Source of the DNA: Clostridia bacterium
GTDB taxonomy: Bacteria; Bacillota; Clostridia; Christensenellales; Aristaeellaceae
Assembly (NCBI GenBank): GCA_017552535.1
Contig: JAFZPV010000050.1
Coordinates: 1 to 52,386 of the forward strand
Direction of reading: 5' to 3'
Length of the DNA: 52,386 nt
The notes under the pieces were generated by a model. It did not search any database. It was not told where the DNA came from and saw only the letters and a program-made list of their open reading frames with translations. Positions 25,332 to 28,995 of this stretch are shown here, piece by piece (the first letter of the stretch is position 1; each line of letters opens with the position of its first letter). Made by a program: the position numbers and the translations under genes.

Positions 25332-27944
25332 ATGGCGCGAAACATCGTTCTTGGCATACTGGCTCACGTGGACGCCGGAAAGACCACGCTCACGGAATCC
25401 GTGCTGCTCAAAAGCGGCGCGATCCGCAAAGCCGGACGCGTGGATCACCGCGATACCTTTCTGGACACCGACGTTCAGGAAAGGGAGCGCGGCATCACCA
25501 TTTACGCCAAAAACGCCATGTTCTCCTGGAAGGATACCCCATTCACCCTGATCGACACGCCGGGCCACAGCGATCTTGCCGGAGAGGCGGAACGGGTCCT
25601 TTCCGTGCTGGACGCCGCAGTCCTCCTGGTGAGCGCTCCGGACGGCGTGCAGGGACACACGCTGACGCTTTGGCGGCTTTTGGAAAGCTACCGCGTGCCC
25701 ACCTTCATTTTTATTAACAAGATGGACATGCCGGGCACAGACAAAGCTCAGGTGATGCGCGAGATCAAGCGCCGCTTGAGCCCGCTGGCTGCCGAAGCAA
25801 ACACCGAAGACTTTACCGAGACCGCTGCCATGGTGAGCGACGAAGCGACTAGAGCGTACCTGGAAAGCGGCTTCCTTCCGGAAGAAGCGGTGCAGCAGGC
25901 CTTTGCGCAGCGTCTTTTGTACCCCTGCGTTTTCGGCTCGGCCCTCAGGCACGAAGGAGTGGATGCTTTGCTGGACACCGTATCCCGCTGCGCCTGTTCC
26001 CAGGCCGCGGACGGCGATTTCTCCGCCCGCATCTATAAGATCGCCCGGGATAAAAACGGCGAAAAGCTCGCCTTTCTGAAGGTTACAGGCGGAGAACTTC
26101 GAGTGCGCACGCCCATTCGCCGCCATGTTTCGAGCAGGGATGAAGGCGTCGAAGAAAAGGTTTCATCCATCCGCTTCTATTCCGGCGAAAAGTATACTGT
26201 TGCCGACCTGGCGCCCGCCGGAAGCATATGCGCCGTAACGGGGCTGAAAAGCGCATTGGCGGGCGACGTGCTGGGCGCGGAAGAACAGGTAAAGCGGCCC
26301 GTTCTGGAACCCGTTTTCACCTACCGTGCGCTGCCGGCCGAAGGGATCGATCCACACACTGCGCTGTCCGCTTTCCGCACGCTGGAGGAAGAAGATCCCC
26401 TGCTTCGGGTCAGGTGGAACGAAGCGCTGTCGGAGATACGCGTCCAGGTGATGGGCGACGTTTCGCTGGAGATCCTGACCCGCGTGCTTCACGACCGTTT
26501 CGGCCTCGAAATACGTTTTGATACCGGCAGTATCCTGTATAAAGAGACCGTCACCGCACCCGTGAACGGATATGGCCATTACGAGCCCCTGAGGCATTAT
26601 GCCGAGGTGCATCTCAGGATAGAACCCGTACCCCGCGGCAGCGGCATACGGGTGAAGAGCGAAGTGCCTGTGGACGAGCTTGCCCTGAACTGGCAGCGGC
26701 TCATCTTTACGCACCTGACGGAAAAACAGCACAGGGGCGTGCTGACAGGTTCTTTTCTTACAGACGTCACTTTCGTGCTCACGGCGGGACGGGCGCATCT
26801 TAAGCATACGGAAGGCGGAGATTTCCGCCAGGCCACTTACCGGGCAGTCCGCCAGGGGCTGATGAACGCGCAGAGCGTCCTGCTGGAGCCCTGGTACAGG
26901 ATGAAGATCTCCCTCCCCGACACCTGTGCCGGACGCGCCATGAGCGATATTGACCGCATGGGCGGAAGGTTCGATCCGCCCGAATCCGCAGGCGGAGAAA
27001 CAGCTCTTATAGCCTATGCCCCGGTCAGAAAAGCCGCCGGATACCAAAGGGAGCTGAACGCGTATTCCAGGGGTCTCGGCAGGATGAGCCTGGAAGTGAG
27101 CGGATACGAGCCCTGCCCCGATCAGGACGCGATCGTTTCTTCCATCGGATACGATCCCGAAAGGGACCCAGACGAGTCCGCCGATTCCGTATTCTGCTCC
27201 CACGGCGCAGGTACGCTGGTTTCCTGGCGCGAGGCGCCAAGGCATATGCACATCCCCATCGAGCGGGAGCGCACCGAAGAAACGCCTGTGCCGAAAACGC
27301 GCGGGCGCTCCTCGGATACGGACGAAGCGCTGATGGAGATCTTCGAACGCACCTACGGAAAGATCTCTCCCCGAAGCTTTGAGACACGCAAGCCGCCCGC
27401 CAGGCCCGTTTCCTCCGAGGTGAAAGTGATCGATATCCCCAAACGTCCCGAATATCTGCTGGTAGACGGCTACAACGTGATACACGCCTGGCAGGAGCTT
27501 GAAAAGGCAGCCTCCGGCGATCTCGACCTTTCACGCCGCATGCTCAGCGACATACTGGACAATTACGCCGCCACCCGGGACGTGCACGTGATACTGGTGT
27601 TTGACGCGTATAAGGTGCACCGCGGTCAGGGCAGCTCAGAAACATACGGCAATATCGAGATCGTATATACCCGGGAAGCCCAGACCGCCGACAGCTATAT
27701 CGAAAAGCTGGCCCACGAGCTTTCGAGCTTGAACCGTGTGCGCGTGGCGACCTCGGACGGGCTGGAACAGCTCATCATTCTGGGAGGCGGCGCGCTGCGC
27801 ATGTCCGCCGCGGAACTGAAAAATGAGATAGACGCCTCCAACACAGAACTAAGGCGCATCCTGGAGCGTCTCAATCTCGGTCGGAAAGGCGTCAGTGTGG
27901 AGGGTGCGCTGGCGGACGCCGTCAGAAAGCTCGGTCAGCAATGA
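25332..27944 (+). CDS. Tet(M)/EF-G-like translational GTPase fused to a Rae1/YacP-type NYN nuclease domain (870 aa)
   Basis: Residues 1-650 match ribosomal-protection/EF-G GTPases: G1 AHVDAGKTT (11-19), RGIT (54-57), DTPGHS with catalytic His79, NKMD (129-132), then domains II-V. The domain-IV tip reads TEGGDFRQATYR where Tet(M) has VSTPADFR, so drug displacement is doubtful. After a charged linker (about 650-700), residues 703-870 match YacP/Rae1: LLVDGYNVIHAW, VFDAYKV, TADSYIEKLA, ATSDGLEQ and GGGALRMSAAEL. The four acidic residues are present (Asp712, Asp758, Asp787, Asp809). Bacillus Rae1 is known to cut mRNA in the ribosomal A site, where EF-G-like GTPases also bind, so the fusion suggests a GTPase-delivered ribosome-dependent endonuclease. 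ATGA overlap with the next gene. Domain calls are firm, the mechanism is inferred. Confidence 0.92.
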   Translation: MARNIVLGILAHVDAGKTTLTESVLLKSGAIRKAGRVDHRDTFLDTDVQERERGITIYAKNAMFSWKDTPFTLIDTPGHSDLAGEAERVLSVLDAAVLLVSAPDGVQGHTLTLWRLLESYRVPTFIFINKMDMPGTDKAQVMREIKRRLSPLAAEANTEDFTETAAMVSDEATRAYLESGFLPEEAVQQAFAQRLLYPCVFGSALRHEGVDALLDTVSRCACSQAADGDFSARIYKIARDKNGEKLAFLKVTGGELRVRTPIRRHVSSRDEGVEEKVSSIRFYSGEKYTVADLAPAGSICAVTGLKSALAGDVLGAEEQVKRPVLEPVFTYRALPAEGIDPHTALSAFRTLEEEDPLLRVRWNEALSEIRVQVMGDVSLEILTRVLHDRFGLEIRFDTGSILYKETVTAPVNGYGHYEPLRHYAEVHLRIEPVPRGSGIRVKSEVPVDELALNWQRLIFTHLTEKQHRGVLTGSFLTDVTFVLTAGRAHLKHTEGGDFRQATYRAVRQGLMNAQSVLLEPWYRMKISLPDTCAGRAMSDIDRMGGRFDPPESAGGETALIAYAPVRKAAGYQRELNAYSRGLGRMSLEVSGYEPCPDQDAIVSSIGYDPERDPDESADSVFCSHGAGTLVSWREAPRHMHIPIERERTEETPVPKTRGRSSDTDEALMEIFERTYGKISPRSFETRKPPARPVSSEVKVIDIPKRPEYLLVDGYNVIHAWQELEKAASGDLDLSRRMLSDILDNYAATRDVHVILVFDAYKVHRGQGSSETYGNIEIVYTREAQTADSYIEKLAHELSSLNRVRVATSDGLEQLIILGGGALRMSAAELKNEIDASNTELRRILERLNLGRKGVSVEGALADAVRKLGQQ

Positions 27945-28282
27945 AAAAGATACTTCTTTTGCTTTTGGGTCAGCTGGCGCTGTTTTACGTATTGTATCTG
28001 GCCGCGTATCTGATGCGTCCCGTTCCGGCCGTGTTCGGTCTGCTGATGTGGGCCGTACTGCCGGCAGCCGGGGCCGTGAGCACATTTTTCACGGTCGCGC
28101 GGGGCGTAAATCCTTACTCCGCATGGGTATTGCCCCCCATTGCCCAGATCCTGGCTTCTGTAACTGCCACAGGCGGACACGCTCCCGCCCTCGGGCACGC
28201 CCTCGTTTTGTGCTTATTCTGTGTACTGGGCGCCGCAGCCTCCGACACCCGTGATAAAAAGTACCGAAGGAAAAAGAAATGA
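27941..28282 (+). CDS. Small membrane protein of unknown function (113 aa)
   Basis: It has three to four hydrophobic segments (about 4-25, 30-50, 62-78 and 85-100) and a very basic tail ending YRRKKK, so the C-terminus is probably cytoplasmic. No family recognised. It overlaps the stop of the GTPase-nuclease by 4 bp and is itself overlapped by the next gene by 4 bp (ATGA both times), so its synthesis is coupled to both. It could anchor or regulate the neighbouring sigma-like membrane protein; this is only a guess from position. Confidence 0.75.
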   Translation: MKKILLLLLGQLALFYVLYLAAYLMRPVPAVFGLLMWAVLPAAGAVSTFFTVARGVNPYSAWVLPPIAQILASVTATGGHAPALGHALVLCLFCVLGAAASDTRDKKYRRKKK

Positions 28283-28995
28283 CGAAAGCTTACGCTTCCC
28301 AGGCAGCCGCCTGCATGAAAGACTGGCGGCCGCTTTATAATGAAATGTATACCCTTTGCCTCGCTGTGACCGGCTCTCAGCGATACGCCCGCGAGGCGCT
28401 TGCCGAAGCGATGATCCGGCAGCCGGAAAAGCCTTCCCGCCGTAAGACGCTAAACGACTGCCGCGAGGCTTCCCTGCGGTATGCCCTGGAATCTGCGGGC
28501 GACGCGGCAGACTGTCTTTCCTCCGCGCCGGGTGTAGGTACCCAAAGCAGCCAGGTGCGCAGATGCGCGTTTTTACATTACGGCTGTCAGCTCACGGTCG
28601 GTCAGATCGCAAAGGTGCTGAGAGTCAAACGAAGTTCGGTACGCCCGATGCTGAAAAGCGCTCTGGCCTCCCTGCAGGCAGGAAATGCCGAAAAGCGGGC
28701 CCACACGCTGAAAAAGCTCTGCGCTGCCGAACTGCGGCTGGGAGCTGACGCGCCGGACGAAGAGACCTTCCGGTATGCGCTGGAAAAAAGGCTGCGCCTG
28801 AAGAGCGAAGCGGAAGAAGTAGTCAGCGGCGGCGGCGGAAAAAGGCTTTTCAGCTGGCTGGCGGCAGTGGTTACACTGGCGTTCATCTGCTTTGCGATAT
28901 GGCTTGGTTCGCTGGTGCTCAATTACTATCACGAAAAACGGATGGAAGACAGACAGCCGGAGAATATTCATGTTGAAGTACAGTGGAATCGTTGA
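28279..28995 (+). CDS. Sigma-factor-like protein with C-terminal membrane anchor (238 aa)
   Basis: The N-terminal part resembles a degraded ECF sigma factor: a region-2-like helix pair (YNEMYTLCLAVTGSQRYARE, residues 15-34) and a region-4-like helix-turn-helix (LTVGQIAKVLRVKRSSVRPM, about 110-130). A conserved-looking tail (about 140-180) leads to a single membrane helix near 194-213 (WLAAVVTLAFICFAIWL), then a short outside segment. Sigma-like DNA-binding fused to a membrane helix suggests a membrane-tethered regulator, or a fused sigma/anti-sigma. The conserved core-binding part of region 2 is weak, so it may not be a working sigma factor. It overlaps the start of recD2 by 26 bp. Confidence 0.6.
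   Translation: MTKAYASQAAACMKDWRPLYNEMYTLCLAVTGSQRYAREALAEAMIRQPEKPSRRKTLNDCREASLRYALESAGDAADCLSSAPGVGTQSSQVRRCAFLHYGCQLTVGQIAKVLRVKRSSVRPMLKSALASLQAGNAEKRAHTLKKLCAAELRLGADAPDEETFRYALEKRLRLKSEAEEVVSGGGGKRLFSWLAAVVTLAFICFAIWLGSLVLNYYHEKRMEDRQPENIHVEVQWNR

Follow-up and report, generated by a model that had tools for sequence, protein, structure and literature searches.

The gene at 25332..27944 on the + strand of the window, i.e., the whole 52,386-nt stretch analyzed here (contig JAFZPV010000050.1, positions 1 to 52,386 of the forward strand, from assembly GCA_017552535.1 of a Clostridia bacterium of the family Aristaeellaceae, order Christensenellales), encoded a protein that joined a Tet/EF-G-like GTPase to a C-terminal NYN domain of the YacP/Rae1 type. 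The comparisons below favored, with a probability of about 0.55, a resident GTP-driven translation factor that may have assumed the role of free Rae1 and would deliver or support a Rae1-type mRNA endonuclease. The open reading frame (ORF) was complete, running from ATG to stop inclusive, and its 870-aa product is hereafter called the window protein.

The architecture itself was already known: Tet-NYN fusions from ten Clostridiales were described in Atkinson 2015 (BMC Genomics 16:78, PMC4342817), the available excerpts of which suggested an RNase-based resistance mechanism. Those fusions shared with the window protein the Tet-like GTPase, the C-terminal YacP-like NYN domain and clostridial hosts; the excerpts treated them as Tet proteins and connected them neither with Rae1, nor with the replacement of free yacP, nor with unfused proteins sharing their loops. 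A preceding annotation of the window made from the letters alone (the sequence-only reading) had stated that no experimental study of the fusion was known, and this held in so far as none was found in the open-licence literature, but it had missed the earlier description of the architecture. Likewise, no paper tying the fusion to Rae1 replacement was found in the open-licence literature, although the main Rae1 papers might mention it. What is new is the comparative evidence bearing on function: the frequency of the fusion, the apparent replacement of Rae1, the unfused form, and the tip loop.

Comparison with Rae1, Tet(M)/Tet(O) and EF-G

The NYN domain (residues 709-847; 27456..27872, +; Pfam NYN_YacP, 1e-45) scored 156.2 bits against a NYN_YacP cut-off of 24.6 and, when searched alone, had Bacillus subtilis YacP/Rae1 (5mq8/5mq9) as its best PDB match (9e-24), the next match lying at E 0.048. 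The four acidic residues D712, D758, D787, and D809, already picked out by the sequence-only reading, were confirmed in this domain. They were identical in 31/31 fused proteins (the window protein plus 30 comparison loci picked for a long frame), and the four positions kept their acidic residues in 44/44 fused and 52/52 free NYN rows, the latter representing 51 distinct genes; loss of the catalytic aspartates across homologues, which that reading had named as counting against it, was thus looked for and the residues proved to be kept. B. subtilis Rae1 shared with the window protein an NYN domain having the same acidic residues and usually present once per genome, but it differed in being free, in its length of ~170-180 aa, in lacking a GTPase, and in having a gene adjoining rlmB. 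According to the available parts of the cited sources, rae1 of B. subtilis shares a transcript with yacO, the RlmB homologue (PMC6613710), and mRNAs or transcripts, S1025 among them, are the reported Rae1 targets (PMC10632193, PMC11780869).

Free Rae1 relatives further differed from the fused forms, on average, in their basic C-terminal tail: the mean charge of this tail was +3.8 in free Rae1 (52 rows) versus -0.5 in fused proteins (44 rows), a contrast that counts as about one event, not 44, since the fused rows made up one clade. The corresponding region of the window protein was its C-terminal stretch (residues 848-870; 27873..27941, +; defined by the NYN alignment). A basic tail not seen in fused forms would be expected if the GTPase supplied docking.

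The closest solved structures to the whole protein were Tet(O) and Tet(M) (4v6v and 3j9y), followed by EF-G. Identity to Tet(M)/Tet(O) was ~30% across 97-98% of the GTPase part, and the protein missed the cut-offs of both the NCBIfam tet_protect equivalog (390.5 versus 775 bits) and the EF-G equivalog TIGR00484 (261.5 versus 659 bits). It shared with Tet(M)/Tet(O) the five-domain EF-G-like GTPase body, but it belonged to a separate clade below the family cut-off, had no Pro509 tip, displayed another loop I, and carried the added tail SVFC...MH plus the NYN domain. It shared with EF-G the domain order, the G motifs, and a histidine at the tip-loop position, but it fell below the EF-G cut-offs and had different domain IV loops.

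The domain IV tip loop III (residues 486-499, GRAHLKHTEGGDFR; 26787..26828, +; defined by alignments) contained T493-E-G-G-D-F-R499. The sequence-only reading had named TEGGDFR as the difference from Tet(M); this was correct as a reading of the letters, but the telling change was adjacent, namely the loss of Ser508-Pro509-Val510 of Tet(M), which aligned with Leu490-Lys491-His492 of the window protein, so that Lys491 stood opposite Pro509. Across 74 rows, His492 was invariant and Lys491 nearly so. Pro509 of Tet(M) is the residue overlapping tetracycline, according to the available parts of PMC7456112 and PMC8161019. Opposite the EF-G tip histidine stood His489 in the window protein and a tyrosine in Tet(M). 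Two domain IV loops, GH(Y/F)EPLRHYAEVHL and KHTEGGDFR(Q/E)ATYRAVRQGL, were kept with few changes in the 31 fused proteins. A tail after domain V, SVFCxHGAGxxVxWxxVxxYMH, was common to fused and unfused members of the clade, and it was not present in the compared Tet(M), Tet(O), OtrA-like, and EF-G rows.

The genome of the window (G000) also encoded a further Tet-like GTPase, belonging to a different clade (L174, G000:C33:10049-11860), which displayed the tip loop HHLIHTHPLDF and the tail VDPLDSAKYILAARSAL and missed the tet_protect cut-off as well (444 versus 775 bits).

Phylogeny and distribution of the fused form, the unfused form and free rae1

With redundant or partial loci excluded, 44 fused GTPases fell into one clade in a quick tree of 113 GTPases (SH-aLRT 100), and 20/20 fused ones did so in a careful tree of 47 GTPases (support 100/99); Tet(M), Tet(O) and others stood apart from the fused/unfused clade in both trees. 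The fused clade also included five unfused proteins (L105, L107, L220, L277, and L300), the other unfused ones lying outside; the quick tree suggested NYN loss in these five, and the careful tree did not reject the fused proteins alone as a clade (p-AU 0.057). In an NYN tree of 96 rows, 42 of the 44 fused NYN domains grouped (support 91) with one free gene, from genome G349; the placement of L199 and L200 was unsure owing to a long branch. A single fusion event was the simplest reading of these trees. The free NYN gene of G349 (L095, 3787-4308) encoded 173 aa and was located away from rlmB, within the fused NYN group with modest support, and this genome also had a separate unfused GTPase; the gene is likely a fused domain set free again (fission).

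The GTPase profile A1, built from the fused GTPase part, separated one score group from the rest: 24 genomes of the order scored >640 bits (7 fused and 17 unfused), and the next score was 471. Pfam family PF05991 was present in 33/151 genomes of the order and in 250/393 genomes of the class, the latter count, like all class counts below, holding among the matches listed. Of the 393 class genomes, 135, among them G000, carried the fused GTPase and 26 the unfused one; no clade GTPase was found in 230, a group that included ten genomes with matches weaker than 1e-165 and that may hide some clade members, since three GTPase candidates were scored per genome. The survey of how often an NYN domain followed this GTPase clade, proposed in the sequence-only reading, thereby gave fused-to-unfused counts of 135 versus 26 in the class and 7 versus 17 in the order. 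The frame reached 800 aa or more in 129/135 fused class genomes; G192, G218, G299, G314, G373, and G429 were counted as fused with an assembled frame of <800 aa or a split one. Two genomes were set aside: G290, with a partial GTPase match, and G326, with a 451-aa NYN frame and no GTPase match, probably a fused gene broken by a contig end. Named organisms with the fusion gene included Ruminococcus flavefaciens FD-1, Intestinimonas butyriciproducens, Anaerovorax odorimutans, and Holdemania massiliensis.

Free rae1 seems to have been replaced by the fused gene, as judged from copy number and gene order. A single YacP match was found in 130/135 fused class genomes, and the other five comprised (i) G419 with an intact second, free copy, (ii) G499 with a broken remnant, and (iii) G265, G316, and G348 with weak half-domain matches. 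Among 51 distinct free yacP genes, 46 were located directly after rlmB, and 43 were followed closely, on their own strand, by a SigH match. In 10/21 fused genomes examined, the window's own included, rlmB was followed directly by SigH, and in the window's own genome 28 nt separated the end of the rlmB match from the SigH start. At the rlmB site, G419 had yacP and then a sigma factor. Thirty fused loci spanning 5-13 kb contained no rlmB match. Since yacP normally stood between rlmB and sigH and this slot was empty in about half of the fused genomes examined, the free gene was seemingly lost from its old place. The broken free yacP remnant of G499 (contig C56) was located directly after rlmB and was followed by a sigma factor, in a genome that also had the fused gene.

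Unfused members of the clade had both the domain IV loops and the tail in common with the fused ones and ended shortly after the tail. A separate YacP was found in 41/49 sampled genomes with the unfused GTPase: 17/17 in the order, 20/26 in the class (including G501 and G463, whose YacP frame length was not printed), and 4/6 in the wider phylum, where the six genomes were classed by score outside the trees and a deeper match, G841 (624 bits), was excluded. The class figures reflected the move of G505 from the unfused group to that without clade GTPase (total 27 to 26, YacP 20/26), made because its protein L203 was located outside the clade and had no tail. Genomes without clade GTPase had YacP in 9/127 cases in the order and in 93/230 in the class; the difference from genomes with the unfused GTPase gave Fisher p values of 6e-16 (order) and 4e-4 (class), shared descent being ignored. 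Collinsella sp. had the unfused GTPase together with a free YacP, and no YacP was found in the genome of L277, another carrier of the unfused GTPase. Eight genomes with the unfused GTPase had no convincing YacP (G174, G177, G202, G215, G320, G423, G820, and G863): a search for a hidden YacP at E<=1 yielded nothing in G174, G177, G202, G423, and G863, and the weak matches in G215, G320, and G820 were rejected, their frames looking by eye like a site-specific recombinase (G215) or DNA polymerase I (G320 and G820).

Proposed function and alternatives

The proposed sequence of events would be as follows. The GTP-bound EF-G-like body would dock at the factor site of ribosomes with a vacant A site (paused or stalled), and domain IV, its tip unlike that of tetracycline-protection proteins, would probe the decoding region; GTP hydrolysis would then pull domain IV out, and the NYN domain on its ~100-residue linker would cleave mRNA within or close to the now empty A site, which would start decay of that message. 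We infer ribosome binding, the order of events, and the mRNA target, the last being carried over by analogy from B. subtilis Rae1. If true, a widespread clostridial gene named in database records for tetracycline resistance would be a translation-linked mRNA decay factor and would offer a direct handle on how Rae1 reaches the ribosome; the same families included genera with the free form and genera with the fused one, which makes the role of the GTPase testable by exchange.

Several observations weighed against delivery of the nuclease by the GTPase: (i) the A site is the position assigned to domain IV as well as to Rae1, and the two would not be there simultaneously, a steric problem for the use of GTP to place a nuclease put forward in the sequence-only reading, which would need sequential action; (ii) G419 retained both fused and free forms; (iii) in 9/21 fused genomes, the ~1.5 kb after rlmB held a different gene or, on that strand, no gene of 75 aa or longer, so that the empty slot was readable in about half of fused genomes; (iv) the window protein's own tail was mildly basic (+2); (v) the co-occurrence of the unfused GTPase and YacP ignored phylogeny; (vi) the 8/49 genomes without convincing YacP indicated that the GTPase can exist without the nuclease, the link not being strict; and (vii) YacP occurred where no clade GTPase was found (the 93/230 class genomes), and B. 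subtilis Rae1 is not known to need a GTPase of this kind, so that the GTPase would not be required.

A wider version of the proposal can be put forward only tentatively: the unfused GTPase might be an unrecognized Rae1 partner in many Bacillota, forming a two-part system for GTP-driven cutting of mRNA on the ribosome; the two parts would have been joined once in clostridia, with subsequent loss of rae1 between rlmB and sigH, and B. subtilis Rae1 would be a GTPase-independent form.

A rather unlikely alternative reverses the order: the NYN domain, like free Rae1, would cleave A-site mRNA first, and the GTPase would then clear or reset the ribosome remaining on the cleaved message, the fusion coupling two steps instead of aiming the nuclease. 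This would remove the steric conflict in the A site and would accommodate both YacP without clade GTPase (93/230) and clade GTPase without YacP (8/49), and His489, which aligned with the EF-G tip-loop histidine, was retained; but any splitting or translocation activity would be putative, the domain IV loops were unlike those of EF-G, and the EF-G cut-offs were missed.

Protection against tetracycline or another A-site drug, with the nuclease as an add-on, was improbable. It is the proposal published in Atkinson 2015, as given in the available excerpts (PMC4342817), Tet(O)/Tet(M) were the closest solved relatives, and a RefSeq record called a fused relative a tetracycline resistance protein. 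This proposal was weakened by the tip loop, in which Ser508-Pro509-Val510 was replaced by residues including the nearly invariant Lys491 and the invariant His492 (74 rows), by the missed tet_protect cut-off (390.5 versus 775 bits), by the clade being separate from Tet(M)/Tet(O), by the lack of a conserved neighborhood across 108 fused loci, and by a resident-gene-like distribution (135/393 class genomes). The sequence-only reading had likewise judged that the window protein was no tetracycline resistance protein, and the distinct clade, the score far below the tet_protect cut-off and the seeming replacement of free Rae1 supported this; given the signs of that replacement, translation-linked mRNA decay would fit better than resistance.

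The still less probable idea that the NYN domain cleaves rRNA or tRNA on the ribosome (in turnover or a damage response) instead of mRNA draws on the proposal of NYN domains for rRNA/tRNA maturation (available excerpts of PMC4342817) and on a sequence that does not reveal the substrate, but it sits poorly with a domain that appears to replace free Rae1, whose reported B. subtilis targets, in the excerpts cited above (PMC10632193, PMC11780869), include S1025 and are described as mRNAs or transcripts.

Two database records illustrated the naming of this clade: (i) an Agathobacter rectalis plasmid record (NZ_CP143948.1, L219), in which a fused member was named TetM/TetW/TetO/TetS family tetracycline resistance ribosomal protection protein, and (ii) Ligilactobacillus salivarius NZ_CP116813.1 (L220), in which an unfused member on a plasmid beside rpsN (S14) bore the same tetracycline resistance name. 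Both names are likely over-annotations; if the translation-factor reading holds, such records are misnamed, and resistance counts drawn from those names would be inflated.

Remaining domains and gene neighborhood

The GTPase-then-NYN order proposed in the sequence-only reading was confirmed by Pfam, with all domain assignments of the 870-aa protein exceeding curated cut-offs, and by alignments. The G domain (residues 5-220; 25344..25991; GTP_EFTU, 6e-50) retained the G motifs AHVDAGKTT, RGIT, DTPGH (His79), and NKMD in invariant or nearly invariant columns; it was followed on the same + strand by domain II (residues 230-314; 26019..26273; EF-G_D2), domain III (residues 326-396; 26307..26519; EFG_III), domain IV (residues 400-514; 26529..26873; EFG_IV and alignments) with the clade-specific loop I GHYEPLRHYAEVHL, and domain V (residues 516-598; 26877..27125; EFG_C). 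Next came the clade-specific tail (residues 607-641; 27150..27254, +; ...SVFCSHGAGTLVSW...MH..., from alignments) and a variable linker (residues 642-708; 27255..27455, +), the span between aligned positions 605 and 708 measuring 98-169 residues in the 31 proteins. The extent of the GTPase had been given as residues 1-650; the GTPase was indeed intact with its G motifs kept, but homology stopped at residue 598 and the conserved tail reached to ~641.

At the 30 comparison loci from other genomes, a single frame aligned along nearly the whole window protein, and these one-frame fused genes ruled out a chance join, a frameshift or an assembly accident. A frame of >780 aa was present at 77/80 named genome loci, the remaining three comprising one cut by a contig end and two unfused ones. 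Two large opposite-strand ORFs over the fusion gene were dismissed as antisense genes, neither having any Pfam family match. An anti-phage defense protein was also rejected (0 PADLOC families matched).

No gene family was common to more than 14 of the 108 fused loci, which ruled out an operon partner and indicated that local gene order was not the clue. In the window, an alpha-mannosidase (GH38) gene was located upstream and ended 9 nt before the start of the fusion gene. Downstream, an ORF at 27941-28282 encoded a hydrophobic 113-aa protein without Pfam match, and its start and the fusion gene's stop overlapped by 4 nt; it was followed by an ORF at 28279-28995, the 238-aa product of which had a weak sigma-70 region 4 match (E 0.0012, below cut-off), and then by a RecD2 helicase gene.

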